This document shows, one piece after another, positions 2,975-23,323 of a stretch of DNA of 64,000 bases. The position numbers were made by a program, and so were the translations under genes. A model generated the notes under the pieces. It was given only the letters and a program-made list of their open reading frames with translations, did not search any database and was not told where the DNA came from. The stretch spans positions 62,001 to 126,000 of the forward strand of contig JALEZD010000018.1 in NCBI GenBank assembly GCA_022772735.1, read 5' to 3'. The DNA comes from Erysipelotrichaceae bacterium (GTDB lineage Bacteria > Bacillota_I > Bacilli_A > Erysipelotrichales > Erysipelotrichaceae). Positions within the stretch are counted from its first letter, which is position 1. Each line of letters opens with the position of its first letter.

Positions 2975-3775
2975 TTAATACCTCCCTTTATTTTTAAGTT
3001 TAAATCTTATCCAATTAGGTAATAGAGCAAATAAATACGGTTTAAGGTATATAAAATCATTAAAAAAATTTAACTTTAATTTTTTTCTGTAATATTTTCT
3101 TAACTCAACTGCTTTTTTTATTGATTTAATATTACGCTTTTTGTAATCATTTAATGATTCACTATATCTTACAAGTGGAATATTTATATTTGCTCCTTTA
3201 TATCCATTTATAAAAAATCTATACCATAAATCTAAATCTTCACATCTTTTACAAAACTCACTATTATCATATCCATTTAAATCTTTTAAAACATTTTTTT
3301 TAATCATTATTGTTGGATGATGAAATGGATATCCTCCACTAGTTAATGTATTGATAGTTGGGTTTAGCACAATTTTTCTTGTATTAATAATATTTTCGCC
3401 ATCAAAAATATCCATATAACTTCCAACACAGTCAATCGATGGATTATCTATTAAATATTGAACTTGTATTTTTAATCTATCTATATAACAAACATCATCA
3501 TCATCAATTCTAGCTATATATTCACCTTCAGCAATCTCCAAACATCTGTTTAGCGCACCTGCAAGTGTTAATGATTTTTCATTTTTTATTATTTTAAATA
3601 TATTTGGATATTTATTATAATATTCATTCAAAATTGAAAAAGTATCATCATTTGATGCATCATCACAAACAACAATTTCAAAATCATTAAACGATTGATT
3701 TAATATTGAATTGAAAAGGTTATGTAATTTTAATGAACCATTATGTGTTCCAATTATAAATGATACCTTCTTCAT
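2975..3775 (-). CDS. Glycosyltransferase family 2
   Basis: A 266-residue GT2 enzyme. The N-terminus reads SFIIGTHNG, then VVCDDASNDDT and a DxD region RIDDDD at about residues 91-96, followed by HHP and WYRF-type residues common in rhamnosyl- or galactosyl-type capsule transferases. It lacks any long membrane domain. It starts 2 bp after the priming transferase gene, which makes it a good candidate for adding the second sugar of the repeat unit. That role is inferred from gene order only. Confidence 0.87.
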   Translation of the reverse strand: MKKVSFIIGTHNGSLKLHNLFNSILNQSFNDFEIVVCDDASNDDTFSILNEYYNKYPNIFKIIKNEKSLTLAGALNRCLEIAEGEYIARIDDDDVCYIDRLKIQVQYLIDNPSIDCVGSYMDIFDGENIINTRKIVLNPTINTLTSGGYPFHHPTIMIKKNVLKDLNGYDNSEFCKRCEDLDLWYRFFINGYKGANINIPLVRYSESLNDYKKRNIKSIKKAVELRKYYRKKLKLNFFNDFIYLKPYLFALLPNWIRFKLKNKGRY

Positions 3776-3777
3776 TT

Positions 3778-5103
3778 TTAAAATCCTTCTGTACTTTCTT
3801 TAATAAAAATAGTTTTAATTGTCATTAAAATAATTTTAATGTCTAAAAATAATGAATAATTTTCAATATACATTAAATCTAAAAGTAATTTGTCTTTTAA
3901 AGTTGTATTGTATTTACCATAAACTTGTGCATATCCTGTTAAACCTGCCTTTACTTTTAATCTATGTTCAAATTCAGGTAACTCTTTGTATATGTTTTCT
4001 GCAAGTTCTGGTCTTTCAGGTCTAGGTCCAACAATTGACATATCACCATTTAAAATGTTCAAAAGCTGTGGAATTTCATCCAATCTAAATTTTCTAATAA
4101 TTTTACCAATTTTTGTAATTCTATCATCACCCTCTTTAGCAACAAGAGCTTTACCATCTTTTTCAGCGTCAATTCTCATCGATCTAAACTTATATATCAT
4201 AAACTCTTTCCCATATTGAGTTAATCTTACTTGTTTATAAAATACTGGACCATTATCATTAATTTTTATTAAGATTGAAACAACAAGCATAATAGGAGAA
4301 AAAATAATTAGTGCAATAAGAGATAACAACACATCAAAAAATCTTTTTATTATTTTTTCTAATTGAGATGGTCCAAACTTGTTTAAACAAAATAATGGAG
4401 TATCAATCAAATGTAGCTTTTCAGCATTATTCATAATTATTTCATTATTGGTTGGAATTAAATAAATACTTTTACTAGATTTATAGCATTCATTTATTAT
4501 ATAATTTTTTTCATTTTTATTTATATCAAGAATTAATATATAATCATACAAATGAATTTTATCAATTACTGCTGAAAATGTATTATCTTTAACTGAAATA
4601 ATATCTTTAAAATTAAAATTTAAATCACCATTTTTCTTTAATTTATTAAGAACTGTCAAGTAGTCATCTTCATAAATTAATAAAGTATCTTTTGCAGGAA
4701 ATTTAGAATATAAAAATTTCCACTCTAAATAAACTATTAAACAGCCAATAAAAATTTGTATTGTTGCGATTATTGATGAATACAAAATATTTAATAAATG
4801 ATTAGCAATTAATGAGTTTTGAATATATACAATTAACGAAGTAAAAATAAGTGATAAAGAAACTGACCACATCAAATCAGAGACTTTTGAAAATGAAAGT
4901 TTATAGCCACCATATATACCCATAAAAACACTTAAAATTACTGCATAAAGTACCATTATCAATATATATCCTTTAGCAAAAAAAACAATTTCATTTGTAA
5001 AAAATACTCTAAGCATTATGAAATATGAAATTGTAAGTATTATCAAAAGAATTAAGTTTAAAAATAATTCTATTGACTTTTGTGTTCTAACTTTTTTATT
5101 CAT
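3778..5103 (-). CDS. Priming undecaprenyl-phosphate sugar-phosphate transferase (WbaP/CapM-type)
   Basis: This 441-residue membrane protein transfers a sugar-1-phosphate to undecaprenyl phosphate, the first step of repeat-unit assembly. It has four to five N-terminal transmembrane segments (about 12-130), a middle CoA-binding-like domain, then the bacterial sugar transferase domain: KRFFD at 253, a re-entrant hydrophobic segment, FRSM at 306-309, LDEIPQ at 341-346 and VGPRPER at 358-364. These are the family's invariant motifs. It is the first gene after a hairpin at 5168-5187, so it probably heads its own transcription unit. It is the only priming enzyme in the window, so all the polysaccharide modules may depend on it or on one outside. 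Which sugar it transfers is not readable from sequence. Confidence 0.95.
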   Translation of the reverse strand: MNKKVRTQKSIELFLNLILLIILTISYFIMLRVFFTNEIVFFAKGYILIMVLYAVILSVFMGIYGGYKLSFSKVSDLMWSVSLSLIFTSLIVYIQNSLIANHLLNILYSSIIATIQIFIGCLIVYLEWKFLYSKFPAKDTLLIYEDDYLTVLNKLKKNGDLNFNFKDIISVKDNTFSAVIDKIHLYDYILILDINKNEKNYIINECYKSSKSIYLIPTNNEIIMNNAEKLHLIDTPLFCLNKFGPSQLEKIIKRFFDVLLSLIALIIFSPIMLVVSILIKINDNGPVFYKQVRLTQYGKEFMIYKFRSMRIDAEKDGKALVAKEGDDRITKIGKIIRKFRLDEIPQLLNILNGDMSIVGPRPERPELAENIYKELPEFEHRLKVKAGLTGYAQVYGKYNTTLKDKLLLDLMYIENYSLFLDIKIILMTIKTIFIKESTEGF

Positions 5104-5167
5104 ATTTTCCTTTTCTAGTAAAACTAAAGCATTACCTTATAGTAATATACCATTAAATAATATAAAT

Positions 5168-5187
5168 GTCACCTCAACAAAGGTGAC
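5168..5187 (-). terminator. Hairpin between two polysaccharide transcription units
   Basis: A perfect 7-bp inverted repeat, GTCACCT / AGGTGAC with a 6-base loop, follows the stop codon of the GT6 gene at 5196. On the minus strand it is followed by an AT-rich stretch but not a clean run of T, so termination would be partial. It lies in the 92-bp gap before the priming transferase and probably separates the two operons. Confidence 0.5.
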
Positions 5188-5195
5188 ATAAACTT

Positions 5196-6017
5196 TTAAC
5201 CATATATTCCAATTTTTCTTAAGAGTTTTGCAACAAAAATATCTACTTTAGGTTTTTGGTTTGAAATTTTAACTTTAATCTTATTTAAAACAAAAGTATT
5301 TTGCTTTCTCAAACTATCTAATGGAAAATATCTTTCCTTGTTTCTCATTAGTATATTTATTTCATAATTTAATTTTAAAGATTCAGGATATACATAAGAA
5401 ACATCTAAAATTGTATATTCTTTGTTAATAATATATTTGTTTAAATATGACTCATCATGCCATATTGCAATAATATTTTTAGATATATCTTTATCAATTT
5501 CATTTGATAATATATTACTTATATTATAAAATTCTTTCCCTGTTGCACCGAAAAAACATGCTTGTATGTAATGTTTACCTTCTTCTCCCCAATTTACATT
5601 TGCCCAACATTTTTTATTTCTATCAAGAGGATATTCATATTTATCTTTAGTATTTACATACTTAAAATGTTTTGCAACAATTATATCACCTTTTGTTGGA
5701 ATAATACATTTATCAATATCCTTAACAAACATAGCATTTGCATTAAAAAAATACACATAATCATATTTTTTTATATCTTCTTTTACAGTCATAAACATTT
5801 TAAATCTCAACAAAGTATTATATGGCCAGCCTAAATCTTCAAAGTAAATAAAGCTTACATTATCAAAACTATTTGATTCAATCATTTCTTTATTATCAGT
5901 AAAAACATAAAAATGTTTTCGATCATTTTTAAACAAATGTTTTATAGCTGATTCGTAAAATTCTTCAAAAAAGCAACTATACTTACCAATACAAATGTAA
6001 AATATGCCAATATTCAT
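5196..6017 (-). CDS. Family GT6 glycosyltransferase (ABO blood-group-like) with NxN motif
   Basis: A 273-residue protein with the hallmark of family GT6, the family of human blood-group A/B transferases: WHDESYLNKY at 186-195, preceded by the acceptor-site region QACFFGATGKEFY. Where vertebrate enzymes carry a metal-binding DxD, this one has FNANAMF, giving N92-A93-N94. The NxN replacement is known from bacterial GT6 members such as the Bacteroides ovatus enzyme, which works without a metal ion. GT6 enzymes add alpha-1,3 Gal or GalNAc with retention of configuration. The length matches the compact bacterial form, without the vertebrate membrane anchor. It is the last gene of the long minus-strand operon starting at 18443 and abuts the gene before it. 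Family assignment is strong; the donor is unknown. Confidence 0.9.
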   Translation of the reverse strand: MNIGIFYICIGKYSCFFEEFYESAIKHLFKNDRKHFYVFTDNKEMIESNSFDNVSFIYFEDLGWPYNTLLRFKMFMTVKEDIKKYDYVYFFNANAMFVKDIDKCIIPTKGDIIVAKHFKYVNTKDKYEYPLDRNKKCWANVNWGEEGKHYIQACFFGATGKEFYNISNILSNEIDKDISKNIIAIWHDESYLNKYIINKEYTILDVSYVYPESLKLNYEINILMRNKERYFPLDSLRKQNTFVLNKIKVKISNQKPKVDIFVAKLLRKIGIYG

Positions 6018-6818
6018 CTAAATGTCCTTTCCAAAAATAAATTCTATATTTTTTAAAAACAAATCTATTTTTATCATCAATCTGTTGATAATACTTTTTT
6101 TTCTTAATTCCATTGGATTTTTTATTTCATTCCTTGGAGTTATAAAATTTAATTTTTTTCCAATTTTTTGTTCTAATCTTAATTTTTCTTCTAAATTAAT
6201 GTATCCTTGTACAATTAAAAATCCATTATTATATATATATGGTCCATTAATATTGGGAACTTGAGAGATAAATTTGTAATTATCACTAATTTTTTTTGCA
6301 CGAATTGAACCATAATACTCAGCAGTCCATGGAGTATCACTAGGCTTTAATAGTGAAATTAGTACCTTTTTATTCCAAATCCCTGCTTGAAGATTCAATA
6401 AATATTTACCCTTTTTATATCTTTTCTCAAATCCATACAAGTTTATATTTTCATATTTTTTATCAGTTCTTATTACAGAAAAAGACGCATTAGCAACATT
6501 ATTTTCTTTCATGAATTTTAATATTTCATTAATTCTTTCATAATCAACAGTTTCTTCAACAATGTAATCATCAAGTATTAGAAATACATAATCATTTTCC
6601 AATTTGCTTAAAGTTTCAATAAATCTACTTCCCCATTCTTTAGAATCGGATGTTAAAACTTTACTTACAATTGGGCTGTATATTTTATCAATATGTTCCA
6701 TACCAACAAATAATTTTCTGTTAATATTACTCCAGTGAATATTAATTTGTTCTAAAAGTATATTGACAACATCTAAATTCTTGTCACAGCTCATAATCAA
6801 TACATCATAATCATTCAT
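6018..6818 (-). CDS. Probable glycosyltransferase, family not assigned
   Basis: A 266-residue protein without an obvious named family. The N-terminus YDVLIMSCDKNLD resembles the first strand of a GT-A fold, and FLILDDY near residues 81-87 looks like a DxD-type donor site. WGSRFIETL and PWTAEYYGSIRA-type residues recall capsule transferases found next to GT8 genes. It overlaps the upstream GT8 gene by 4 bp (ATGA) and abuts the GT6 gene downstream, so a role in the same sugar chain is likely. There are no membrane segments. Function is inferred from fold hints and context only. Confidence 0.6.
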   Translation of the reverse strand: MNDYDVLIMSCDKNLDVVNILLEQINIHWSNINRKLFVGMEHIDKIYSPIVSKVLTSDSKEWGSRFIETLSKLENDYVFLILDDYIVEETVDYERINEILKFMKENNVANASFSVIRTDKKYENINLYGFEKRYKKGKYLLNLQAGIWNKKVLISLLKPSDTPWTAEYYGSIRAKKISDNYKFISQVPNINGPYIYNNGFLIVQGYINLEEKLRLEQKIGKKLNFITPRNEIKNPMELRKKSIINRLMIKIDLFLKNIEFIFGKDI

Positions 6819-7765
6819 TTTATACCTCGTATTTTATTAACAAAACTATTAAATGTTATATAAAACCAATATGGAGTATTATAGAAGATAAATGCCATAA
6901 ACTTATATCCAAAAGAGTATGAAATATCTTCTTTTTCTAATCCAATTTCAATCATATTTTTTTCAAAATCAATTTTTCTTGGATGCCTACACATATTAAA
7001 CCACGGTCTTGCATAAAATGCTCCAGTATAGTGTATTATTTTTGCATTTTTTTGAGCTGCTTCTATATCACTTTTTTTATATTTTTTTCTGAAAATTGAT
7101 CTTTTACATGCTGAGAATACATCACCAACATAAAATTGACTTGTAACATTAAAAGTGTGATCAAGAAAATATATTTTATTTTTACAAACACCATTTATTG
7201 TTCCTTGGTCATGATAAGCAACTTGTCCATTATGATTTCTAATAAACTCTATAAACTTTTCAACGAGATTATCCTTATTAATTTGTTTTATATTTATCAG
7301 TAAAACACCTGCATTTATGTAATTATCATATTCACATAAACCCACATCTATTCTAGCTTGTTTTGATACCGGATCAATTACACCTGCTACATAATTATCT
7401 TTAATATCTATTTCAAAAAGTTCATTTAATGGTGCAGTAACTATTGTGTCACTATCTAAATATAATGCTCTATCAATATAACTAAGTATTTCTGGAATAA
7501 ATAGTCTAGCATATGTGCTAAGTGAATCGTTTAGTTTTAATGTATTTTTTGATATATTCTCAAGATATTCTGAAACATCAAAAAAAGAATAATTAATCCC
7601 CTTATCATCTAAATATTTTTTAACTCTTTCTATGTTTTGAGCAGATAAATTTGTATACATAATATTTATCTTTGAGTTGTTATTATATTTAATGAGTGAG
7701 TTTAGTGAAACTAAAAATATGTTAACAAAATTATCATCTATAGAATACACAAAATTATTTTCCAT
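6815..7765 (-). CDS. Glycosyltransferase family 8 (LgtC-like)
   Basis: A 316-residue GT8 enzyme, a retaining galactosyl- or glucosyltransferase type. Visible motifs are YSIDDNFV at the start, LYLDSDTIV with the DxD metal site near residue 105, the substrate region YINAGVLLIN, YHDQGTIN and the C-terminal HYTG-x4-RPW that binds the metal and nucleotide. The last 30 residues are aromatic and basic, as in the membrane-associated tail of LgtC. A second GT8 gene lies directly upstream with 11 bp overlap; the pair probably arose by duplication. AGGAG eight bases before the ATG supports the start. Confidence 0.93.
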   Translation of the reverse strand: MENNFVYSIDDNFVNIFLVSLNSLIKYNNNSKINIMYTNLSAQNIERVKKYLDDKGINYSFFDVSEYLENISKNTLKLNDSLSTYARLFIPEILSYIDRALYLDSDTIVTAPLNELFEIDIKDNYVAGVIDPVSKQARIDVGLCEYDNYINAGVLLINIKQINKDNLVEKFIEFIRNHNGQVAYHDQGTINGVCKNKIYFLDHTFNVTSQFYVGDVFSACKRSIFRKKYKKSDIEAAQKNAKIIHYTGAFYARPWFNMCRHPRKIDFEKNMIEIGLEKEDISYSFGYKFMAFIFYNTPYWFYITFNSFVNKIRGIK

Positions 7766-8714
7766 TTTTTAGACTCCTAATCTTTTCTACAATTTTATTA
7801 AAAACATCGAATGTTTTTGAATCAACATTATAATAAAGTCTTGTTAATACAAAATAAATTTTACTCATTTTGTTCTTTTTACGTGAAACACTATCTGGTA
7901 ATAAACTCAAATAATATTCATAACGGTCTTTTTTAACATGAACACAATATTCATTCCATGGATGACAACCAAACATTCCTGTATAGTGAATGATTACAGG
8001 GGTATCAATAGCATTTTTATATTCATCAGGCTTGTAAAAACCTTTTTCAAAGTTCACAAAAGATTTTCCCTTCCTCTTCATCAACATTTGAGATGTAACA
8101 TTATATTTAGGATGAACATAAACTGCACGTTTAGATAATAAATTATTCATTGTACCTTGATCCATATAATGAACTACACCATTTTTTTCATTTATAAAAT
8201 CTATGCACTTATTTTCAATTCCCAATTCTCTCCACTTTTTTGCATTTATTAATATTACACCTGCATTAAAATAATTATCTTCTTCTTTTAGGCCTACTTT
8301 TAATTTTGTATCTGGTGTAGTGATTTCATCAACCACAGCAACCACATTATTCTCAAACTCAATATTATAAAAATCAAAAATATCTCCATCAATTACTGTA
8401 TCAGCATCGATAAAAAGAACTCTATCCAAATCATCTAATTTATTTGCAATAAATATCTTTGCGTATGTCAAATTCCAATTTGCATCAGTTTTTGCAATAC
8501 CATCAATAATTTTTAACTCATTTGATATATTATAAAATATTATTTTACAATCATAATTTCCAACAATTTGTTTAAGGGTTTCTTTTTGTGAATCGCTAAA
8601 GTTATTTTCAAAAACATTAATAGAAACTTCTTTATTATTTTCTAATAAAGATTTAATTGAAACTGTTAGTGGTACAAAAAATTCTGAGTTTGATACATAA
8701 GCAACATTAATCAT
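7755..8714 (-). CDS. Glycosyltransferase family 8 (LgtC-like), second copy
   Basis: A 319-residue GT8 enzyme with the same architecture as its neighbour: VLFIDADTVIDGD (DxD form DAD), YFNAGVILIN, VHYMDQGTMN and IIHYTG with HPWNEY near the C-terminus. The DAD rather than DSD triplet and the HPW rather than RPW ending show clear divergence from the adjacent paralogue, so the two likely add different residues or linkages. GAGGTG precedes the ATG. It sits 12 bp after the acyltransferase gene in the same operon. Confidence 0.93.
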   Translation of the reverse strand: MINVAYVSNSEFFVPLTVSIKSLLENNKEVSINVFENNFSDSQKETLKQIVGNYDCKIIFYNISNELKIIDGIAKTDANWNLTYAKIFIANKLDDLDRVLFIDADTVIDGDIFDFYNIEFENNVVAVVDEITTPDTKLKVGLKEEDNYFNAGVILINAKKWRELGIENKCIDFINEKNGVVHYMDQGTMNNLLSKRAVYVHPKYNVTSQMLMKRKGKSFVNFEKGFYKPDEYKNAIDTPVIIHYTGMFGCHPWNEYCVHVKKDRYEYYLSLLPDSVSRKKNKMSKIYFVLTRLYYNVDSKTFDVFNKIVEKIRSLKNGK

Positions 8715-8726
8715 TATAATTACACC

Positions 8727-9788
8727 TCACATTAAATTTGGTAAATAAACGCTAATTTTTTGATATAGCCATTTTGACAAATCATTCAAAAGCTTTTCAA
8801 ATAAAAATCTAATTAATTTATCAAGCAATAGACATACACAAAAAACAAGTATAGATGAAAAAAAGCTATATAATATTAATAACATACTATTTTCAATTCC
8901 AGAAATATATAAAATATTTTTCCATATTATATCTCTTGTAAAAACATTATCATGAAGGAGATAAATACCAAAACAGCTACTAGATATTAAAGAAATATAT
9001 TTATGCTCGTTTATATGTATTTTTTCAAAATATATAAATATTTCTATTGCGACTATAGAAAATAAAAATCTTTGCATTTCATAATAGTATGAATATATTT
9101 TAATCGGAGAAATCATATTTGTAGATGAAATATATAATACTGCAATCAAACTTATTAACAATACTACAAAATTTATTAAAAAGAATTTTTTTGTTTTTAA
9201 TTCAATTCCAAATATTTTTATATATCCACCAGTTATATACCACAATATAGCCCATCTTAAATTATCATAAATTATATTTTGTCCTGTCAAAGATATACCT
9301 GCAATAGAAATAAATAAAATTATGATTAATACTTTTGATTCATTTTTGTTTAAAGAAAAAAACAGCCTGTTTATAAATGGAGAAAATAAAATCAAAAAAA
9401 CATAAACAGAAGCAAACCAATTCAGTTGAAATAAAATAGGAAAAAACGACCTGAAAATCAGTGACCAATTCAATAAATTTCTAAAAAAGAAAATTGTAAA
9501 TATTAAAAGTATTATATTATATAACCAAGTTTTTAAAATTATGTATATAATCTTTTTTATTCCTTTAAATTCTATTTGAGGTGATTTTTCACATAAAAAG
9601 TATCCAGTAATCATAAAAAATAAAATATTACCTATTCCACCACCCAATCTTATAAATTGCAGAAATAGTCTATTAAAATCAAAAATATATAGATTTTCCC
9701 ATTTACCGTGAACTGAAAAGTGTGATACAACAATCAAAAACATAGAAATAATCCTAAGTAGTTCAAAGTTCATCATTTTATTTTTCAT
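8727..9788 (-). CDS. Acyltransferase family 3 membrane O-acyltransferase
   Basis: A 353-residue integral membrane protein with about ten hydrophobic segments. The N-terminal NFELLRIISMFLIVVSHF holds the arginine and histidine of the acyltransferase-3 (OafA/YrhL) active site, and FFMITGYFLC follows in the second helix. These enzymes add O-acetyl or similar groups to extracellular or lipid-linked polysaccharide. There is no C-terminal SGNH domain. AGGAG eight bases before the ATG supports this start, and the gene overlaps the flippase by 11 bp. The likely role is decorating the repeat unit made by this operon. Confidence 0.87.
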   Translation of the reverse strand: MKNKMMNFELLRIISMFLIVVSHFSVHGKWENLYIFDFNRLFLQFIRLGGGIGNILFFMITGYFLCEKSPQIEFKGIKKIIYIILKTWLYNIILLIFTIFFFRNLLNWSLIFRSFFPILFQLNWFASVYVFLILFSPFINRLFFSLNKNESKVLIIILFISIAGISLTGQNIIYDNLRWAILWYITGGYIKIFGIELKTKKFFLINFVVLLISLIAVLYISSTNMISPIKIYSYYYEMQRFLFSIVAIEIFIYFEKIHINEHKYISLISSSCFGIYLLHDNVFTRDIIWKNILYISGIENSMLLILYSFFSSILVFCVCLLLDKLIRFLFEKLLNDLSKWLYQKISVYLPNLM

Positions 9789-11319
9789 GTTTTACTCTCC
9801 TAACTGTATTTACTAGATAAATCAAAACATCTTTTAATTTAGAATTCTTGATATTAAAAATATAATATAAAAATAAAGTTATAATAAATACAATAATCGC
9901 ATTCACAATGAAAGCAATATAATTGTTAGATATTCTAATATTATGAATAATAAAGTAGTTAGATATTAAAATTAATATATATTGAAAAACATAATAAACA
10001 TAAAATTTAAAAAAATCAAAAATTTTATCATTTAAATTCGCATGTTTTAAAAACACATATGGTTCCCAAAAAAAACTTATAATTAGAAAAGATAAAACTG
10101 TACCTAAAACAACTCCTGTTATTCCATATTTTTTTACAAGAAGTATAGATAACAAAATATTTAATAAAGCTTCAATTAACGGTCTAATTTGATCTTTTTC
10201 TAAAATACCCATATTATGCTTGAAAGTGTATATTACCTCTTTCATTCTCATTAAAATAAAATGAAATCCTAAAATCAAAGGGAATGAAATATTTTCAATA
10301 AACTCTACCCCTGCCCATTCGCTGATGAATGGTTGAACTAAAAATGTATATAATTGTGAAACAAAAAGTCCTATAGTAAAATTTATCAATAATACCTTAT
10401 GTAATAAATTATATATCGATTCTTTTGATTCAGAAGCACTATAATTACCAACTGAAGCAGAAATAGAGTTAATAAATATTCCCATAAATGAACCTAAATT
10501 ACTAGTAATGAATACATAATTTGTATAAATACCTGTACCACTTAAACCTAAAAAAGTTGCGATTATCATTCTGTCAGAAGAGTTAATAATTATTGAAGAG
10601 ATACTATTACTAAATAAAGCAATTGTTTTTTTTATTATAGATTTTTTTTCATCTTTTTCTAAATCTTTTGTACAATTTTCACTAAGTATTGGGTACAAAT
10701 GCTTTGATGAATAATTTAATGATAAATTTAATAAGATTGTAATAATAAATTGTAAGATTAGGTATATGTAATAGTTTTGGAATAATAGTAAGGAAATACA
10801 TTGAGATAAAATCAAAATAAAATCAAACATTATTTTTCTCTTATCAATAATATGCTGTTTTTCATTAATAAACAGAAACTGTATATTAGGAAAATAAAAA
10901 TATGGAAAAGCAGCATTAAATAAAACAATAATAAATATAAAATTATAATTTAGATTTAGCGTAGACGATTTAATAAAATAGTTTAAAAATGGTAGTACAC
11001 TTAAACCTAACACAATAAATAATACACCGATAAAAATATATATTTTTCTAAAAAAAGATAAGTATTGTTTTATTTTTTCATCATCACTTTTTGCAATGGA
11101 TGTATACAATGCAACAGCCATACTTGCACCAAACCCCAATTCAGTCATGGCTAAATACATAAGAATATCATTAAACAAACCATTTACCCCTAAATATTGA
11201 ACACCAAGTTTCTTGATAAATATAGTTTGTAAAATAAATTTAAAAACAATTAACAAAATCTGCCTAATTAAACCGAACGAAAAATTGTTAAATACTGATT
11301 TAACTCTACTTTTACTCAT
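9778..11319 (-). CDS. Polysaccharide flippase (Wzx-like)
   Basis: A 513-residue MOP-superfamily protein with about 12-14 membrane segments. The N-terminal segments read SFGLIRQILLIVFKF, then LGVQYLGVNGLFNDILMYLAMTELGFGASM, the common start of Gram-positive capsule flippases; SNSISSIIINSSDRMIIATFLG is the typical mid-protein motif with a buried charged residue. It would export the repeat unit built by the rfbFGH/GT module in which it lies. It overlaps both neighbours slightly (11 bp and 8 bp). It resembles the partial flippase at 1-974 more than the one at 26459. Confidence 0.92.
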   Translation of the reverse strand: MSKSRVKSVFNNFSFGLIRQILLIVFKFILQTIFIKKLGVQYLGVNGLFNDILMYLAMTELGFGASMAVALYTSIAKSDDEKIKQYLSFFRKIYIFIGVLFIVLGLSVLPFLNYFIKSSTLNLNYNFIFIIVLFNAAFPYFYFPNIQFLFINEKQHIIDKRKIMFDFILILSQCISLLLFQNYYIYLILQFIITILLNLSLNYSSKHLYPILSENCTKDLEKDEKKSIIKKTIALFSNSISSIIINSSDRMIIATFLGLSGTGIYTNYVFITSNLGSFMGIFINSISASVGNYSASESKESIYNLLHKVLLINFTIGLFVSQLYTFLVQPFISEWAGVEFIENISFPLILGFHFILMRMKEVIYTFKHNMGILEKDQIRPLIEALLNILLSILLVKKYGITGVVLGTVLSFLIISFFWEPYVFLKHANLNDKIFDFFKFYVYYVFQYILILISNYFIIHNIRISNNYIAFIVNAIIVFIITLFLYYIFNIKNSKLKDVLIYLVNTVRRVKHEK

Positions 11320-12193
11320 ATATTTGCCTTAAAGCATATTTGATTTTTCTAAAAAAATTTACTAATGATAATTTTAATTTATGTATTTTGTATCTAAATA
11401 TACTAATTTCCTTTTCTTTATATTCGTTCTTTTTCCCAATAGCTGAATAAAATATATCTCTATATTCTCTAAAATCAACAATATTAAAAATATCTGGTTT
11501 TTCTCTATATGCCATTAAAAGTATAGTTTGATCTTGGTCACAAAAACCACATCTATTTAAAGAAAGCATAGACTCTCTCATCAAATGCCAAAAATCTTTA
11601 GCATATTTACAAGGTAATTGAATAGTTGCTCCTGTTATATAATTTTTTGTCCATTTTATAATGTTAAAAATTGGATTATCATCAAATTCAATAACTTTAT
11701 ACATTTGTATTTTATCAATAAAACTAAAATTCAAACTAGAATTAAAATCATAATTGTAATAATGCCATCCAAAATCATGCCATACAAGTATATTACTACT
11801 ATCTACAATTTCAGAAACCTCTTTTAAACAGAAATACTTTAACATCATCACATAATTGTAAGTATGTGACTGTGTTTCAGGTCTATTTTTATTATATCTA
11901 TAATTAATATAACAAGGATTTGTCATTGATTTTTTTATACTCAAGTATAAATCCTCATCACATTTTAAATAATCTTCAAAAACTATAATTTTTGTTTTAT
12001 CTTTCAATCCATAATCTTCTCTTATTTTTAATAACTTGCTTTCATATTTAGGAACAGTAAAAATATACATAAAGTTATGTATCATAGCCCATTCTTTGAA
12101 GTAATTAATATAATCATCATCACTTCTTTCAAATCCACTCCAACTTTCTCTTCCTAAAGGGATAAACATAGTAACGATTATAGTATTGCTCAT
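11312..12193 (-). CDS. HtrL/YibB-type (WlaTC-like) putative glycosyltransferase
   Basis: A 293-residue protein resembling the HtrL/YibB Pfam family. Matches are the opening TMFIPLGRESW followed by ERSDDDYINYFKEW, then YNYVMMLKYF, and the acidic WHDFGWHYY, corresponding to the W-x-D-x-G-Y motif of the family. A later CDQDQTI segment is also typical. Members occur in lipopolysaccharide, lipooligosaccharide and capsule loci and are thought to be glycosyltransferases, although their reactions are poorly defined. It overlaps the flippase gene by 8 bp. A 37-bp gap separates it from the GT2 gene upstream. The assignment rests on motif memory rather than an alignment. Confidence 0.65.
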   Translation of the reverse strand: MSNTIIVTMFIPLGRESWSGFERSDDDYINYFKEWAMIHNFMYIFTVPKYESKLLKIREDYGLKDKTKIIVFEDYLKCDEDLYLSIKKSMTNPCYINYRYNKNRPETQSHTYNYVMMLKYFCLKEVSEIVDSSNILVWHDFGWHYYNYDFNSSLNFSFIDKIQMYKVIEFDDNPIFNIIKWTKNYITGATIQLPCKYAKDFWHLMRESMLSLNRCGFCDQDQTILLMAYREKPDIFNIVDFREYRDIFYSAIGKKNEYKEKEISIFRYKIHKLKLSLVNFFRKIKYALRQIYE

Positions 12194-12230
12194 AATGTCT
12201 CCTCACTTATAAAAGTATAACATATATAAA

Positions 12231-13262
12231 TTATACTTTCTTCATAGTAATTAAAATGTACAGTTTATAAATAAACAACGAGATCTTTCTAATTGTATTA
12301 AACACTACGAATGAAAAACTATTATCTAAATTATACTTTTCATCAAGATATCCTGCATTTTCATAATCATTATTTTCTAAAAGTATCTTTTTTGCAATAT
12401 TGGCATACCACATAACTTGCCCATTGTATATAAACTTATTTAACATTTTAAAATAAACCTTATTTTTAAATATTTCTTTAAAAACATGCTCTCCAATTTC
12501 AACTTCTTTTAATACTGCTTGTGGATTTCTTCCAATGTTAACTTCCATTCTATATACAAATAGCTTTGAATGTAGTTTGTATATATTTAAACTTTCGTAA
12601 TTCTCCAAATAAAATAACCAGTCAGATATTGGCCAATATTTTTCAATTGAAAAACCCGCTGTTTTTAAAACTGCACTCTTTTTAAAATAGCAACCACTAG
12701 TCCCATATGCCATAGTTCCAGTCAAATAATTAAATATTAATGGATATTTGTATATTTTCCCTGAAAGAATTTTATTAGTATTTGTATAGCAAATTTCATT
12801 ATTTGACATATTATATTGCAATGGTATTAGTATATCAATATCATTCTTTTTGCTAATAATACTATCAATCACACAAAAGTAGTTTTCACACAAAAAATCA
12901 TCATCATGAATGAAAATAGTATTTTCTGATTTAGAAAGTTCAAAACACCTATTCCAATTTCCAAACATACCTAAATTTTTTTCATGTACATAATAAAAAA
13001 CCGATATAGATAAATTACTAATCCAATTTAAAAACTCTTTTTTTTCTTCATTATCTTCAACATTATTATCACATACAACAACACATAATCTATTTAAATT
13101 GAAATTAATTTGCCGAGTAATGCTATTTATCGTTTCTTTCAAAAGTTCATATCTATTATATGTTGGAATTGACACACAAAAATCAAATGTTGAGTTAATG
13201 TCTACATTTTTGTATACTAATTTACTTTTTATGTTTTGTTTATCGTTAAAATTGTTAATCAT
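12231..13262 (-). CDS. Glycosyltransferase family 2, candidate dideoxyhexosyl transferase
   Basis: A GT2 enzyme of 343 residues from the preferred start. The GT-A core shows CVSIPTYNRYELL, VVCDNN, NLGMFGNWNRC and the DxD site IHDDDF. An ATG at 13301 would give 356 residues but overlaps the neighbouring gene by 47 bp. The ATG at 13262 lies inside the last codons of the epimerase gene, an arrangement of translational coupling, and keeps the whole GT domain. Because it directly follows rfbF-rfbG-rfbH and the epimerase, it is the best positional candidate to transfer the 3,6-dideoxyhexose, as GT2-type abequosyltransferases do in Salmonella. That role is inference. Confidence 0.85.
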   Translation of the reverse strand: MINNFNDKQNIKSKLVYKNVDINSTFDFCVSIPTYNRYELLKETINSITRQINFNLNRLCVVVCDNNVEDNEEKKEFLNWISNLSISVFYYVHEKNLGMFGNWNRCFELSKSENTIFIHDDDFLCENYFCVIDSIISKKNDIDILIPLQYNMSNNEICYTNTNKILSGKIYKYPLIFNYLTGTMAYGTSGCYFKKSAVLKTAGFSIEKYWPISDWLFYLENYESLNIYKLHSKLFVYRMEVNIGRNPQAVLKEVEIGEHVFKEIFKNKVYFKMLNKFIYNGQVMWYANIAKKILLENNDYENAGYLDEKYNLDNSFSFVVFNTIRKISLFIYKLYILITMKKV

Positions 13263-14163
13263 CTTCTGAAACCATACTATTATAAGTCTGTAAAATTCCA
13301 TCCTTAAAGCTTGTCTTATTTACAAATCCTAGAGAATATAATTCATCTTTATTAAATTGTGAATAATCAAGATGAACACCTTTTTTATCTTCATTAAAAT
13401 GTAAAAGATTTTCATTGCCTAAAACTTCAATAATTTCAGTAATATAATCTTTTAATTTTTTTCTATCTTTACTTCCTATATAATACTCTTTTAAATTTTC
13501 TCCTCTTTCTGCAATAAATCTTAATGCTTCTACTGCATCATCAATATATATGAAGTCATACTCTTGCGTACATGATGAAAGCTCCACAATCTTTTTAGAC
13601 AATATACTATTTAATATATAACTTATTAAGCCTACATCTTTACGTCTTAAACCATAAACATTTGAAAACATCGCACAATTGTATTTAATTTGAAAAACAT
13701 TAGAATAGTATAAAGTTATCATATGTGAATATAATTTCGAAAATCCGTAAATAGAATTATTATTAAATACTATTTTTTTATAATCAAAAACACTGTCTCT
13801 ACATTCATATTCCATTATGCTACCTGCATAAATAAACTTACTGACATTAATTTTATAACAAAACTCTAGTAACTGATATGAGTTTTTTATATTTTCCATT
13901 TGTATATCAAAATTGTTTCTATTGTTATCAGAAACACCTATCCATGCCAAATGGAAAAAATAATCGACTTTTTTATCAATACACTTTTTAATATATTCAA
14001 TATTATTTAGATTTGTTTTTATATGACAATAGTTTTTATGTGTTATTTTTGATTCAGAAATATCAATTCCAAAAACAAAGTATTTACTACTTAATAAATT
14101 TTCTGTCAACTTTTTGCCTATAAATCCACTTGAACCACTTACAATTGCAACATTATTGTACAT
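13255..14163 (-). CDS. NAD(P)-dependent epimerase/dehydratase, candidate CDP-dideoxyhexose synthase
   Basis: A 302-residue extended short-chain dehydrogenase. The Rossmann motif GSSGFIG is at 9-15, a serine/threonine region near YAGSIMEYE and the catalytic YxxxK as YGFSK. It lies immediately after rfbH, overlapping it by 11 bp. In Salmonella the same position is held by CDP-abequose synthase (RfbJ) or CDP-paratose synthase (RfbS), C4 ketoreductases of this superfamily. I infer that this enzyme reduces the C4 keto group to finish the CDP-3,6-dideoxyhexose. Which epimer forms cannot be told. AAGGA upstream of the ATG supports the start. Confidence 0.8.
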   Translation of the reverse strand: MYNNVAIVSGSSGFIGKKLTENLLSSKYFVFGIDISESKITHKNYCHIKTNLNNIEYIKKCIDKKVDYFFHLAWIGVSDNNRNNFDIQMENIKNSYQLLEFCYKINVSKFIYAGSIMEYECRDSVFDYKKIVFNNNSIYGFSKLYSHMITLYYSNVFQIKYNCAMFSNVYGLRRKDVGLISYILNSILSKKIVELSSCTQEYDFIYIDDAVEALRFIAERGENLKEYYIGSKDRKKLKDYITEIIEVLGNENLLHFNEDKKGVHLDYSQFNKDELYSLGFVNKTSFKDGILQTYNSMVSEDD

Positions 14164-15484
14164 GAAAATAATCCTTTATAACCTTAACCATATATTCAAG
14201 TTTTTGTTTTGTCATTTTAGGAGATAATCCTATCCAAAAAGTGTTATACAATATCTTATTTGTATTTTCCAAATTTCCTACAACTCTATAAGCTGTTTCA
14301 TCATCTCTTATGGAATCAAAGCAAGGATGCAAAATCATATTAGAAGAAAATAACATTCTTGTTTGTATATTATGACTCTCTATATGTTTTACAAGATCAT
14401 TTCTGTTTATTCCATCCCTGACTGTTATAATAAAACCAAACCAACTTGGATCAGAATTATCAGCTGGAACTGGTAAAATCAATTTATCTTCTAAACATTT
14501 CAATCCATTATAAAGTATTTTATAGTTTTCTTTTCTTACTCTTACAAAATCATTAATTTTATCTAATTGTGCAACACCTATCGCAGCCTGCATTTCAGTA
14601 ACTTTTAAATTATATCCAAAATGTGAATAAACGTATTTATGATCATATCCAATAGGAAGTTGTCCATACTGTTTATCAAATCTTCTTCCACATGCATTGT
14701 CTTGACCACTTTTGCATACACAATCTCTTCCCCAATCTCTAAATGAAAGCATTATTTTATATAAAAGAGAATTGTTTGTATATACTGCACCTCCTTCACC
14801 CATAGTCATGTGATGAGGAGGATAAAAACTAGATGTTCCTATATCACCAATTGTTCCTGTAAGTTTTGTAGTTCCATCAATATTATAAGTAGATCCTAAT
14901 GCATCACAGTTATCTTCTATTAACCATAGATTATTCTCTTCACAAAATTTCTTAACTTCTCCAATATTAAATGGATTTCCCAATGTATGAGCAATCATTA
15001 CTGCCTTTGTTTTTGAAGACAAAGCTCTTTTTAAGTCAGAAACTTTTATATTATATGAAGGTATATCTATGTCAAGAAAAACAGGTATTGCACCATAATT
15101 TAGTATTGGAGTTATTGTAGTTGGAAAACCAGCAGCAACTGTTATAACTTCATCACCTCTTTTTATTTGCCTTTCTTTTAAAAGAGGAGATGTAAGAGCC
15201 ATAAATGCCAATAAATTTGCACTAGAACCACTATTAACTAAAGCACAATGTTTTACTCCTAAATATTTAGAAAAATCTTTCTCAAATTTGTCACAGTATC
15301 TTCCTGAAGTTAACCAAAAATCGAGTGCAGAATCTACTAAATTTACCATTTCTTTTTCATCAAAAACCCTTCCAGCATATGAAATTCTGTCTCCTGCTTT
15401 GAAGTTATCATCTTCAACCATATGCTTTTTATAATAGTTTTTTACTAATTCTAATATTTCTTTCTTATCTTCATTCATTCCCAT
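14153..15484 (-). CDS. rfbH: CDP-4-dehydro-6-deoxyglucose 3-dehydrase (E1)
   Basis: E1 removes the 3-hydroxyl of CDP-4-keto-6-deoxyglucose. The family is an aminotransferase fold that lost the PLP-binding lysine and gained a [2Fe-2S] centre. Both features are visible: FYPPHHMTMGEGG has histidine in place of lysine (228-229 counting from the upstream ATG at 15496). The cysteine set is C259-x-C261-x7-C269 plus C197 in EDNCDALG. The ATG at 15484 is preferred because GGAG lies six bases before it; the one at 15496 places the ribosome site inside the gene. It overlaps rfbG by 14 bp. The electron-supplying reductase (E3, RfbI/DdhD) is not in the window. Confidence 0.95.
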   Translation of the reverse strand: MGMNEDKKEILELVKNYYKKHMVEDDNFKAGDRISYAGRVFDEKEMVNLVDSALDFWLTSGRYCDKFEKDFSKYLGVKHCALVNSGSSANLLAFMALTSPLLKERQIKRGDEVITVAAGFPTTITPILNYGAIPVFLDIDIPSYNIKVSDLKRALSSKTKAVMIAHTLGNPFNIGEVKKFCEENNLWLIEDNCDALGSTYNIDGTTKLTGTIGDIGTSSFYPPHHMTMGEGGAVYTNNSLLYKIMLSFRDWGRDCVCKSGQDNACGRRFDKQYGQLPIGYDHKYVYSHFGYNLKVTEMQAAIGVAQLDKINDFVRVRKENYKILYNGLKCLEDKLILPVPADNSDPSWFGFIITVRDGINRNDLVKHIESHNIQTRMLFSSNMILHPCFDSIRDDETAYRVVGNLENTNKILYNTFWIGLSPKMTKQKLEYMVKVIKDYFHVQ

Positions 15485-16541
15485 AATTTTCTCCATCTAC
15501 ATAATTTTCTATCTGTTTAAGAGTTACATCAAACATGTTCTCACCTAAAAACGATTTTTTCTCCCATTCAATTGTAAGTTTTAAAGCATCGTCTATAGAA
15601 AGTTTGGGTTCCCACCCCAAAACTTTTGAAGCTTTAGAAATATCTAACTTCAAATAGTTTGCTTCATGTGGACCAAATTTATTAGTAATTACATAATTTG
15701 CATCTTTCCCCCATAATGCACAAAATTTTTTTACTAATTCTTCTGTGTTTATACAATTATTTTTATTTGGACCAATATTATAACTGCCGGAATAAAAATT
15801 ATTATCGTACTGTTTCATTGCAAGTAGTAAGTAAAAATAGTTTGCTTCTAAAACATGTTGGTATGGTCTTATTGAATTTGGGTTCCTTACTTCTATGTTT
15901 TCATTCATTAATGTGTATTTTATACAATCTGGTATTATTCTATTACAAGATGAATCCCCACCACCAATAACATTTCCAGCACGGCAGGTAGAAACAGCAA
16001 TATTACTACTTCTAAAAAAAGAGTTTATATAACTACTAGTTACCAATTCTGAGCATGACTTACTATTGGAATAAGGATCAAAACCATTTAGTTTATCATC
16101 TTCGTTAAAATAATAATCAGCTTTCTCAAAGTTTTGATAAACTTTATCCGTAGTAACATTTATAAACGATTTAACGCTCTTCACATTTCTGATACATTCA
16201 CATATGTTGACTGTTCCCATCACATTAACTTCATATGTATATTTTGGATTTTCATATGAGTCAATAACAAGTGGTTGAGCTGCAAGGTGAAAAACTATTT
16301 CAGGTTCAAATCTATTAAATATTTCAAAAAGTTTATTATAATCTCTGATATCAACAATATTTGAGTTTAACTTTTTAGATAATTCAAGTTTAGAAAAAAT
16401 CCCATCATCAACTGGTTCAAGAGAAACCCCACAAACATTAGCACCCATATTTAAAAGCATTGTGCTTAACCATCCCCCTTTAAAACCTGTATGTCCTGTA
16501 ACAAGAACTCTTTTTCCACAATAAAATTCTTTTATATTCAT
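15471..16541 (-). CDS. rfbG: CDP-glucose 4,6-dehydratase
   Basis: The second enzyme of the CDP-6-deoxy-hexose pathway. This extended SDR has the NAD motif GHTGFKG, followed by the family signature GGWLSTMLL, a VTTDKVYQN segment, and the catalytic YSNSK of YxxxK near the usual place. HLAAQPLV and the NVMGTVNICE segment are also typical. An ATG at 16577 would overlap rfbF by 35 bp. The ATG at 16541, just after the rfbF stop and reading MNIKEFYCGKRV, fits the family length (356 residues) and is preferred. It is sandwiched between rfbF and rfbH in the same order as in Gram-negative 3,6-dideoxyhexose clusters. Confidence 0.95.
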   Translation of the reverse strand: MNIKEFYCGKRVLVTGHTGFKGGWLSTMLLNMGANVCGVSLEPVDDGIFSKLELSKKLNSNIVDIRDYNKLFEIFNRFEPEIVFHLAAQPLVIDSYENPKYTYEVNVMGTVNICECIRNVKSVKSFINVTTDKVYQNFEKADYYFNEDDKLNGFDPYSNSKSCSELVTSSYINSFFRSSNIAVSTCRAGNVIGGGDSSCNRIIPDCIKYTLMNENIEVRNPNSIRPYQHVLEANYFYLLLAMKQYDNNFYSGSYNIGPNKNNCINTEELVKKFCALWGKDANYVITNKFGPHEANYLKLDISKASKVLGWEPKLSIDDALKLTIEWEKKSFLGENMFDVTLKQIENYVDGENYGNE

Positions 16542-16542
16542 A

Positions 16543-17316
16543 TTACCAAACCATCCATGGTGCATTATTTGTTTCAATTAAATTTTCCAATTTATTTTTA
16601 TCTCTTATTGTATCCATACATTGCCAAAAACCTCTATGTTTATATGCAGAAAGCTTATTCTCATTAACTAAAGTTTCAATGGTATATTTTTCAAATATAG
16701 TGCCATCGCCATCTATATAATCAAAAATTTTCTTGTCTGCAACCATGTATCCCCCATTTATCCATTCTGTATCAAATTTACTTTTTTCTCTAAACGAAGA
16801 AACTTTGCCATTTTCACATATATCTAAAATTCCAAATCTACTTTCTATTTCAACAGCACTCAATGTCAAAATAGAATTAGATTTATTATGAAATTCTATT
16901 AAACTTAATAAATCCACATTTGATAATCCATCACCATAAGTTAATAGGAACTTTTCTTCAGAAATATAATCTTTTATTCTTTTTATTCTTCCACCAGTCA
17001 TTGTATCTAGACCAGTATCAACAACTGTAACTTTCCATGGTTCACTTTTATTAGAATGAATAATTATATTATCACTTTTACCAAAATCAAAAGTCACATC
17101 CGACATTGTTAAACAATAATCTCTAAACCATCTTTTAATATATTCTTGTTTATATCCTGCACATATTATGAATTCATTAAACCCATAAGAACTATAATAT
17201 TTCATTATATGCCACATTATTGGTTTACCACATATTTCAATCATTGGTTTTGGTTTTAAATATGATTCTTCACTAATTCTTGTTCCATAGCCTCCAGCAA
17301 GTATGACAACTTTCAT
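16543..17316 (-). CDS. rfbF: Glucose-1-phosphate cytidylyltransferase
   Basis: This enzyme makes CDP-glucose from CTP and glucose-1-phosphate, opening the CDP-dideoxyhexose pathway. The 257-residue length is exact for the family. The nucleotidyl-transferase motif LAGGYGTR is at 6-13, followed by KPKPMIEICGKPIMWH, then the family-specific WFRDYCL and VDTGLDTMTGGRIKR, and YGDGLSNVD with the metal-binding aspartates. The start codon overlaps the stop of the upstream GT4 gene as TAATG, indicating coupled translation. With rfbG and rfbH it forms a complete CDP-4-keto-3,6-dideoxyglucose route apart from the E3 reductase. Confidence 0.97.
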   Translation of the reverse strand: MKVVILAGGYGTRISEESYLKPKPMIEICGKPIMWHIMKYYSSYGFNEFIICAGYKQEYIKRWFRDYCLTMSDVTFDFGKSDNIIIHSNKSEPWKVTVVDTGLDTMTGGRIKRIKDYISEEKFLLTYGDGLSNVDLLSLIEFHNKSNSILTLSAVEIESRFGILDICENGKVSSFREKSKFDTEWINGGYMVADKKIFDYIDGDGTIFEKYTIETLVNENKLSAYKHRGFWQCMDTIRDKNKLENLIETNNAPWMVW

Positions 17317-18443
17317 TAATTGATACTCCCTTCATTTATTAAATCTTTATATATTTTATCATATGATTCAATAACATTTTGTACTTTATTTTTTTCGGAT
17401 TTTATTAAATTGTTTTCACTTATTAAACTGCAAATGTTTTTATCTCCATACATTTTTTTTATTTTAATAATATAATCTTGAACTGTATTATCACACAAAA
17501 ACCCATTTTCGCCATCAATAATTAAATCATTATTTCCTCTAATATTACTTACTATACATGGAAGTCCACATTCCATAGCTTCCATAATTGAAACTGGTAA
17601 TCCCTCTCTTAAAGACGGAAATATAAATACATCACTGGCATTCAATAAATCAAAAATATCATTTCTAAATCCCAAAAGTTTGACTCTATCATCCAATTTG
17701 TTTTCTATTATGTATTTTTTATAGTAATTCATTAATTTTCCATCACCAACAATTATATATTTTATATCTTTCAGCTCATCATCTTTTAAAGTATCAATTA
17801 CCACCTTATGATTTTTATTTTTATTTAGTTCTCCAACAGAAATCAAAACAAAATCATCCTTTGAAAATCCAAGTTCACTTCTAATATCTTTGTTATTGAT
17901 AACTCTATTACTAAAATCTACACCAACCCCATTTACAAAATATGTTTCTTTCGCATGAAACTTACTTATTGCCAATCTATAATCTTCACTATTTATTGTA
18001 ATTAAAACATCTGTAATTTTAGATAATTCCTTCTCTATTGGATAATAAATTAACCAATTTATTAAAGATGATCCCTTATAAAAATGAAAACCATGCGCTG
18101 TATATATTACTTTACAACCAGTTTTTCTAGAATTTCTTGCCGCAAGTCTAGTTAAAACACCACCAACAGGAGTATGTGTATGAATTATTGAAAACTTTTC
18201 TTCATCAATTATTTTTTTCAACTTTTTATACGCAACTATATTGTCTTTATCCATAGGATTGCGTGAAAATGGCAAATCGATATATTTGTCACAATAAGGG
18301 ATATCTATTTCTTTGCTATCAGTATCATTTCTGGCAATTACCCATACTTCAAATCCATTTTCTTTAAACCATTTCAAATAGGGTATATGAAATTTCAATA
18401 TATGTCCTTTTAATACTGTTGCGCTAAATAAAACTTTTCTCAT
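17316..18443 (-). CDS. Glycosyltransferase family 4
   Basis: A 375-residue GT-B enzyme. The N-terminal domain reads SATVLKGHILKFHIPYLKWFKENG, typical of EpsD/CapM-type capsule transferases, with HTHTPVGG and YTAHGFHFYKG in the acceptor cleft. The C-terminal domain has VGELNKNKNH and FPSLREGLPVSIMEAMECGLP with the E-x7-E pair. It is the first gene of the minus-strand module carrying rfbFGH. AGAGG precedes the ATG. A divergently transcribed polymerase starts only 56 bp away, so the intergenic space must hold both promoters. Confidence 0.92.
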   Translation of the reverse strand: MRKVLFSATVLKGHILKFHIPYLKWFKENGFEVWVIARNDTDSKEIDIPYCDKYIDLPFSRNPMDKDNIVAYKKLKKIIDEEKFSIIHTHTPVGGVLTRLAARNSRKTGCKVIYTAHGFHFYKGSSLINWLIYYPIEKELSKITDVLITINSEDYRLAISKFHAKETYFVNGVGVDFSNRVINNKDIRSELGFSKDDFVLISVGELNKNKNHKVVIDTLKDDELKDIKYIIVGDGKLMNYYKKYIIENKLDDRVKLLGFRNDIFDLLNASDVFIFPSLREGLPVSIMEAMECGLPCIVSNIRGNNDLIIDGENGFLCDNTVQDYIIKIKKMYGDKNICSLISENNLIKSEKNKVQNVIESYDKIYKDLINEGSIN

Positions 18444-18499
18444 CTTAACCTCTTACTATATGATACAATTTTACTATATTAAAGGGAAAAAACAAATTT
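18444..18499. promoter_or_regulatory. Short divergent promoter region
   Basis: This 56-bp gap separates the minus-strand GT4 gene and the plus-strand polymerase, so promoters for both must lie in or near it. AT-rich -10-like hexamers occur (TATAGT on the minus strand, TACTAT on the plus strand), but no -35 of good quality is visible for either. The individual boxes are therefore uncertain. Confidence 0.35.
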
Positions 18500-22198: not shown

Positions 22199-23323
22199 CT
22201 ATTTTCTCCAAGTTGTTCTATTTACTATATCAGTATAACTTTGTATTATTTTAACTACTTTTATTGAAACATTTAAATCTTGATAATCATTAGCCAAAAC
22301 AAACGGTTCATTATTTTTTTCCATTGAAGTTGAAACTTCAATAGCTTGTTCAATAGACTCTGTTGTTATTCCACCAATTATCACACTTCCTGCATCAAGT
22401 GCTTCAGGTCTTTCTGTACTAGTTCTTATTAAAACACCATTAAACTTTAACATTGCACTTTCTTCAGAAAGAGTTCCACTATCACTTAAAACACAAAATG
22501 CATTTTTTTGTAGTTTATTATAGTCAAAAAAACCAAAAGGTTTTAAATTTTTAACTCTTTCATCAAAAACAAAGTTTCTTTTTTCAATAAATTTTTTACT
22601 TCTTGGATGAGTAGAATATATTATTGGCATATTATATCTTTTCGCAACATTATTTATTGCATTCATTAAAGACATAAAGTTTTCTTCAATATCAATATTT
22701 TCTTCCCTATGTGCTGAAACAAGAATATATTTTCCTTTTTCTAGATTGAGTTCTTCTAAAACTTTACTATTGTCAATGCTTTCCATGTGTGCATGTAAAA
22801 CTTCATTCATTGGAGAACCTGTCACAAATATTGTTTTTCCATCAATTCCTTCTTCAATCAAATATCTTCTAGAATTCTCTGTATATGGCAAATTAATATC
22901 AGAAATCGAATCAACAATTTTTCTATTTATCATTTCTGAAACATTCCAATCCCAGCATCTATTACCAGCTTCCATATGAAAGATAGGTGTTTTCAACCTT
23001 TTAGCGCTAATTGCACTTAAAGCACTATTAGTATCTCCTAAAACTAAAACTGCATCAGGCTTTTCTTTTGAAATAACATCGTAACTTTTTGAAATGATGT
23101 TACCCATAGTTTCCCCTAAATCTTTGCCAACTGCTTCTAAATAATAATCAGGTTTTCTCAAATTAAGCTCATTAAAAAATATATCATTTAATTCAACTGC
23201 ATAATTTTGTCCTGTATGAACTAAAATATGATTAAAATATTTATCACATGCTTTAATTGTTTCAGATAGCCTAATTATTTCAGGTCTTGTACCTAATATA
23301 GTCATAAGTTTTAATTTTTTCAT
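22199..23323 (-). CDS. capG: UDP-N-acetyl-L-fucosamine synthase (2-epimerase, CapG/FnlC/WbjD)
   Basis: A 374-residue member of the UDP-GlcNAc 2-epimerase superfamily. The motifs are LGTRPEIIRL at the N-terminus, HTGQNY, LGDTNSALSA, HMEAGNRCWDWNVSEMINR and SDSGTLSEES with the catalytic-site glutamates. NRCWDWNVSEM and the direct linkage to capF distinguish the CapG/FnlC branch from the WecB branch, which usually has AGLRT at this place. It catalyses the last step to UDP-L-FucNAc, C2 inversion of UDP-N-acetyl-L-pneumosamine. The ATG has AGGAGG upstream and the gene follows capF by 2 bp. Confidence 0.93.
   Translation of the reverse strand: MKKLKLMTILGTRPEIIRLSETIKACDKYFNHILVHTGQNYAVELNDIFFNELNLRKPDYYLEAVGKDLGETMGNIISKSYDVISKEKPDAVLVLGDTNSALSAISAKRLKTPIFHMEAGNRCWDWNVSEMINRKIVDSISDINLPYTENSRRYLIEEGIDGKTIFVTGSPMNEVLHAHMESIDNSKVLEELNLEKGKYILVSAHREENIDIEENFMSLMNAINNVAKRYNMPIIYSTHPRSKKFIEKRNFVFDERVKNLKPFGFFDYNKLQKNAFCVLSDSGTLSEESAMLKFNGVLIRTSTERPEALDAGSVIIGGITTESIEQAIEVSTSMEKNNEPFVLANDYQDLNVSIKVVKIIQSYTDIVNRTTWRK

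Follow-up and report, generated by a model that had tools for sequence, protein, structure and literature searches.

An intact NXN-type GT6 glycosyltransferase gene in a variable surface polysaccharide locus of an Erysipelotrichaceae bacterium

Gene order at the locus

The stretch of DNA analysed here, referred to as the window, covers 64,000 nucleotides of an Erysipelotrichaceae genome (assembly GCA_022772735.1, contig JALEZD010000018.1). The GT6 gene coincides exactly with a minus-strand open reading frame (ORF), which encodes 273 amino acids and has no internal stop. It lies at the end of a run of genes extending from 18443 to 5196 that encodes, in order of transcription, a GT4 glycosyltransferase, RfbF, RfbG, RfbH, an SDR-family protein, a GT2 glycosyltransferase, a YibB-like protein, a Wzx-like protein, an acyltransferase, two GT8 glycosyltransferases, a partner protein and GT6 (Table 1). 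A hairpin of 10 bp with a T-rich tail lies about 6 nt past the GT6 stop codon (folding energy -14.9 kcal/mol, z -4.5), so that the transcription unit probably ends with GT6. This supports the original prediction of an operon-terminal GT6 gene, and the dideoxyhexose genes that it placed in the same operon are present as well, with rfbF, rfbG and rfbH all scoring above their NCBIfam cut-offs. Because the final reductase can be placed no further than the SDR epimerase family, the resulting sugar could be abequose, paratose or another. The idea that the pairing of GT6 with dideoxyhexose genes is unique was discarded, as other GT6 loci carry rfbF, rfbG and rfbH (Capnocytophaga) or rfbF and rfbG (three Paenibacillus and a Treponema).

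Comparison with a congener (G002) shows how the operon is set into its surroundings. The homologues of the genes at 21020-22198 and 1886-2974 (56% and 65% identity, respectively) are neighbours in that genome, and the pair is preceded by homologues of FnlC, WbjC and FnlA (82, 72 and 86%). This adjacency places the GT6 operon within an insert of about 18 kb, in a locus with a conserved core for UDP-L-FucNAc synthesis.

Table 1. Features of the GT6 operon and of the surrounding locus, in window coordinates.
Feature	Position	Strand	Remarks
Inserted segment, about 18 kb, by comparison with congener G002	2975-21019	.	homologues of 1886-2974 and 21020-22198 adjacent in G002
Initiating polyprenyl glycosylphosphotransferase	3778-5103	-	first gene past the hairpin; TIGR03025 338 bits, cut-off 296
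Terminator-like hairpin, T-rich tail	5166-5189	-	directly past the GT6 stop codon
GT6 glycosyltransferase, NXN type	5196-6017	-	NAN 92-94; Q152-A153-C154; catalytic Glu189, Lys227, Arg237
Unclassified GT-A-like protein (partner)	6018-6818	-	stop codon abuts GT6 start; abutting homologues in Beduini and two Gemmiger loci
GT8 glycosyltransferase	6815-7765	-	GT6 operon member
GT8 glycosyltransferase	7755-8714	-	GT6 operon member
Acyltransferase (Acyl_transf_3)	8727-9788	-	GT6 operon member
Wzx-like membrane protein	9778-11319	-	no Pfam match; assigned from its sequence and a weak match to a second flippase-like ORF
HtrL/YibB-family protein, possible glycosyltransferase	11312-12193	-	
GT2 glycosyltransferase	12231-13301	-	
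SDR-family sugar epimerase/reductase	13255-14163	-	possible last dideoxyhexose step
rfbH, 3-dehydrase of CDP-3,6-dideoxyhexose pathway	14153-15496	-	NCBIfam 695 bits, cut-off 423
rfbG, CDP-glucose 4,6-dehydratase	15471-16577	-	NCBIfam 404 bits, cut-off 278
rfbF, glucose-1-phosphate cytidylyltransferase	16543-17316	-	NCBIfam 366 bits, cut-off 300
GT4 glycosyltransferase	17316-18443	-	first gene of the run
FnlC/WecB-like 2-epimerase	22199-23323	-	L-FucNAc pathway; common to congener
WbjC-type reductase	23326-24420	-	L-FucNAc pathway; common to congener
FnlA-type UDP-GlcNAc 4,6-dehydratase/5-epimerase	30898-31935	-	congener about 86%; Beduini GT6 locus 64%

Several other genes of the window deserve mention. 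Two Wzy_C-type genes lie inside the insert on opposite strands with overlapping 3' ends (18500-19807, plus strand; 19780-21039, minus strand), and a third Wzy-like ORF occupies 33105-34310. At 27825-29980 (minus strand), a protein combining a CMP-sugar synthetase-like part (PseF/CTP_transf_3) with a GDSL-like domain adjoins a polysialyltransferase-family protein, an arrangement that may point to a nonulosonic-acid-like sugar in the locus. Between the FnlA gene and the third Wzy-like ORF, a Fic-domain gene with an HTH domain (32071-32964, minus strand; Pfam Fic 6.9e-20) has about 41% G+C within DNA of 20-30% G+C and looks recently acquired, while a second Fic gene (47753-48682) is of ordinary composition. 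Finally, at 54585-56188 (minus strand), a Sir2-family gene overlaps a macrodomain gene, much like the linked sirtuin and macrodomain genes of other Firmicutes.

Family, active site and phylogeny

The ORF is securely a member of the GT6 family. It matches Pfam GT6 (PF03414) with an E-value of 9.7e-21 (74 bits, cut-off 25), and a PDB sequence search retrieves BoGT6a of Bacteroides ovatus at 2.3e-41 and bovine alpha3GT at about 3e-15; such scores put the similarity far above chance. NCBIfam model NF041524 (Gltr_6) is covered in full at 241 bits, narrowly missing its cut-off of 250. The NCBIfam label "glucosyltransferase" is merely a name and was discarded as a guide to the donor. The AlphaFold model, built on a 52-sequence alignment, has a mean pLDDT of 92, and BoGT6a chains head its structural matches in the PDB (TM 0.82 by query, 0.90 by target), ahead of alpha3GT and the ABO enzymes, a result that identifies a GT-A fold of the GT6 type. 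The conserved WHDES spans Trp186-Ser190 and includes Glu189, and the C-terminal Lys227 is in place. Thus, the GT6 enzyme originally predicted from WHDESYLNKY and QACFFGATG, both found in the translated ORF, is borne out by profile, sequence and fold matches. The enzyme is predicted to form an alpha linkage by retaining transfer from a UDP-sugar.

The active site was mapped on an alignment of 83 rows. Residues 92-94 are N-A-N, as had been noted, and align with Asn95-Ala-Asn97 of BoGT6a; NXN takes the place of DXD, and its first Asn is invariant across 81 rows. The BoGT6a residues that contact UDP-GalNAc have been tabulated in a study which also proposes that metal independence arose mainly through the NXN motif and that Lys231 aids the departure of UDP (PMC3961637). 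Compared with this metal-independent enzyme (PDB 4AYJ, 4CJ8), which shares 35% identity, the window protein is alike in family, fold, NAN motif and catalytic Glu, and keeps all catalytic residues and most donor-site residues: Tyr13, Trp64 (66 in BoGT6a), Asn67 (69), Thr68 (70), Arg71 (73), Asn92-Ala93-Asn94 (95-97), His117 (122), Trp186-His187-Asp188-Glu189 (189-192), Lys227 (231) and Arg237 (243). In the donor site, BoGT6a Thr10, Thr134 and His239 are replaced by Ile, Pro and Leu, and the donor tripeptide is changed. From this conserved metal-free site we infer that the enzyme is metal independent in practice, in support of the original assignment to the metal-independent bacterial type. The UDP-sugar would be held without metal by Asn92 and the backbone together with Tyr13, Lys227 and Arg237. 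The surrounding locus is variable and very poor in G+C, which might suggest that the gene is a silent or degenerating copy with no function, yet the ORF is full-length and free of stops and retains every catalytic residue at an identity of about 50% to the Beduini massiliensis gene, so that loss of function appears highly improbable.

The phylogeny of bacterial and vertebrate GT6s, proposed as a check on the original prediction, places the enzyme inside the bacterial NXN group. There, it forms a clade with that of Beduini massiliensis (100/99), joined by a Clostridiales MAG (L009; 98/91), and bovine alpha3GT is a long branch outside. Because the tree, whose single vertebrate sequence is bovine alpha3GT, was rooted at its midpoint, the direction of transfer cannot be read from it. 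The sporadic occurrence expected of bacterial GT6 genes holds: they are present in 5 of 316 genomes of the order and in 2 of 392 genomes of a phylum-wide draw, the window's own included, and two congeners (one of which, G001, is only 80% complete) yielded none. A 2014 paper assigns all bacterial GT6s but one to Gram-negative species (PMC3961637); many Bacillota are found among the best 80 of the 157 GT6 loci retrieved here. Viral spread of the clade was also considered and rejected, as one scan of viral contigs returned a single relative at 36% identity and no sign of phage carriage.

Donor sugar and fucose machinery

The tripeptide Q152-A153-C154 is the counterpart of human ABO codons 266-268, which set the donor in vertebrate GT6 enzymes. 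It differs from the known A/B-type tripeptides (LGG, AGG, MGA and GGA), and no published assay of a QAC enzyme was found. Among 81 bacterial GT6s, only two, those of the window and of Beduini massiliensis, have Ala at the central position, as does bovine alpha3GT with its His-Ala-Ala (HAA). Human A transferase carrying HAA makes the B antigen (Gal), whereas AGG and LGG direct synthesis of A (GalNAc) and GGA of both (PMC6351642). Together with the middle Ala of QAC, the HAA result argues for Gal rather than GalNAc, and UDP-Gal is by analogy the likely donor. The presence of GT11 next to some GT6s with Q first and G in the middle of the tripeptide counts against this reading of QAC. GalE, at 435 bits against a cut-off of 262, indicates that UDP-Gal can be made.

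The likeness to alpha3GT raises the question of whether the product could be an alpha-Gal mimic, i.e., Gal-alpha1,3-Gal-beta ends on an unfucosylated acceptor that form the anti-Gal epitope. Alpha3GT does not need fucose on its acceptor, the two enzymes share the GT6 fold, the middle Ala is common only to alpha3GT, the Beduini enzyme and the window enzyme, and GalE is present. However, alpha3GT has a DVD motif, needs metal, shares merely 25% overall identity and sits on a separate long branch, the window enzyme grouping with bacterial ones; moreover, a linkage within the repeat unit would give no terminal alpha-Gal. We regard this outcome, a special case of the explanation favoured below, as rather doubtful.

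The original prediction also proposed host mimicry of the blood-group (ABO) type. A and B antigens require Fuc-alpha1,2-Gal. The neighbourhoods of GT6 genes were surveyed for fucosyltransferases of family GT11, in the best 80 of the 157 GT6 loci plus two, all GT6-bearing. GT11 was detected by a locally built profile and, because this profile had drifted into GT6, an ORF was counted only if its GT11 score exceeded its GT6 score. GT11 lies within 5 kb in 36 of the 56 well-flanked loci (those with at least 5 kb on either side, out of 81), and 33 of the 81 have it within 300 bp of GT6 or overlapping. For GT6s with the AGG tripeptide of BoGT6a, GT11 is nearby in 17 loci, and no well-flanked AGG locus lacks it; it adjoins the BoGT6a-type genes of L047, L071 and L079. 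Some GT6 loci carry ORFs of 580-700 amino acids that match the GT11 profile (L008:6241-7992, L014:6178-8004, L026:3592-5679 and L056:9238-11115), possibly GT11 fused to another domain.

No GT11 was detected genome-wide in Beduini massiliensis or in the window genome, which is 97.5% complete in 27 contigs, so that a GT11 or gmd gene could have been missed. As a positive control, the search did detect a relative (G008) with GT11 adjoining its GT6. GT11 was the one fucosyltransferase family searched for. GDP-mannose dehydratase (Gmd) reaches at best 57 bits against a cut-off of 415 in the window genome, and the fucose-salvage model 27.5 bits against 34. At these cut-offs, the machinery (GT11 plus GDP-fucose) for the fucosylated H-type acceptor used by ABO enzymes was not found in this 97.5% complete genome, and Fuc-alpha1,2-Gal is probably not made.

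An A or B end on Fuc-alpha1,2-Gal, as made by BoGT6a, H. mustelae BgtA and E. coli O86 WbnI, would fit the family, the fold and most donor-site residues, common to BoGT6a and the window enzyme, and the GT11 carried by most bacterial GT6 loci. Against it stand the absence of detectable GT11 from this genome and that of the nearest relative, the failure of any tested GDP-fucose pathway gene to reach cut-off, and a QAC tripeptide unlike the AGG of BoGT6a. With the fucose machinery missing and the donor site different, the ABO claim finds no support here, and such mimicry is quite unlikely. WbnI, the B-antigen galactosyltransferase of E. coli O86 (PMC4202792), compared by description and not by sequence, is likewise a bacterial GT6 serving a surface polysaccharide, in the galactosyltransferase role likely for the window enzyme. 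Its acceptor is however Fuc-alpha1,2-Gal, and E. coli O86 has the fucosyltransferase WbwK, whose family was not found in the window genome.

The abutting gene and the proposed product

The partner gene ends one base before the GT6 start and matched no Pfam family and no PDB sequence. Its structure model, based on five sequences, is of modest confidence (pLDDT 69.5); the closest folds belong to GT-A glycosyltransferases and to nucleotidyltransferases of a similar Rossmann-like type, and an invariant Asp-Asp pair (83-84) falls at the position of DXD in GT-A enzymes. A glycosyltransferase is the likeliest reading of the gene. A homologue with 34% identity adjoins GT6 in Beduini, and more distant ones abut GT6 in two Gemmiger loci (L023 and L048). 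All four loci have no GT11 within 5 kb: the family occurs in 4 of 20 loci without GT11 and in 0 of 52 with it (Fisher p 0.005), or in 0 of 36 if only well-flanked GT11 loci are counted (p 0.013), a comparison of only two lineages that ignores relatedness. Twelve more genomes of the order carry the family (L099 to L110) with no GT6 in about 1.5 kb on either side, so the protein is not a GT6-only partner. In one of them (L110), it adjoins an FnlA-type gene of 65% identity.

The Beduini gene (L004:7992-8825), the nearest relative at about 50% identity, shares with the window GT6 the QAC tripeptide, an abutting partner, an FnlA-type gene in the locus and a genome without detectable GT11. Unlike the window, its locus has no rfb genes within 8 kb on each side and differs in gene order and initiating enzyme. 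These two loci bear on whether L-FucNAc, or a related 6-deoxy-L-HexNAc, replaces L-fucose in the acceptor and gives a FucNAc analogue of the A or B antigen. The window locus has FnlA, WbjC and FnlC genes, and Beduini is the only other GT6 locus of the set with a close FnlA homologue, which adjoins GT6. Still, the two belong to one clade, the Beduini WbjC-like protein is short with no FnlC within 8 kb, and the FucNAc genes of the window belong to the conserved core and not to the GT6 operon. A FucNAc analogue appears unlikely.

Altogether, these findings lead to a model, held with somewhat better than even confidence, in which a genuine, intact NXN-type GT6 is a probable metal-free alpha-galactosyltransferase that modifies a fucose-free repeat unit in a variable surface polysaccharide. 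The operon would be a variable module inserted into an L-FucNAc polysaccharide locus, and the enzyme would be cytoplasmic, its substrate being the lipid-linked repeat unit from which a Wzx/Wzy-type polysaccharide is built. The Q-A-C tripeptide would favour UDP-Gal, and the sugar would be transferred with retention, giving an alpha linkage. Because the cell seems unable to make a fucosylated end, the acceptor is probably not the H-type end of BoGT6a and the human ABO enzymes; beta-Gal or HexNAc is more likely, and the abutting GT-A-like protein may be what adds or modifies this residue.

In bacteria, GT6 is usually taken as the maker of blood-group-like ends. The survey suggests a candidate rule by which GT6 with an adjoining GT11 would signal a fucosylated ABO-like product, and GT6 in a GT11-free genome another product; if true, it would help to predict which commensals are able to raise anti-A, anti-B or anti-Gal antibodies. 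The analysis also marks a protein family without a Pfam model as a probable glycosyltransferase. More tentatively, this GT6 lineage may have left the fucosylated blood-group niche, pairing with the undescribed glycosyltransferase family of the abutting gene instead of GT11 and using an alpha3GT-like Q-A-C site to place alpha-Gal on a FucNAc- or dideoxyhexose-containing polymer. If so, both the acceptor class within GT6 and the glycosyltransferase family paired with it would be new.
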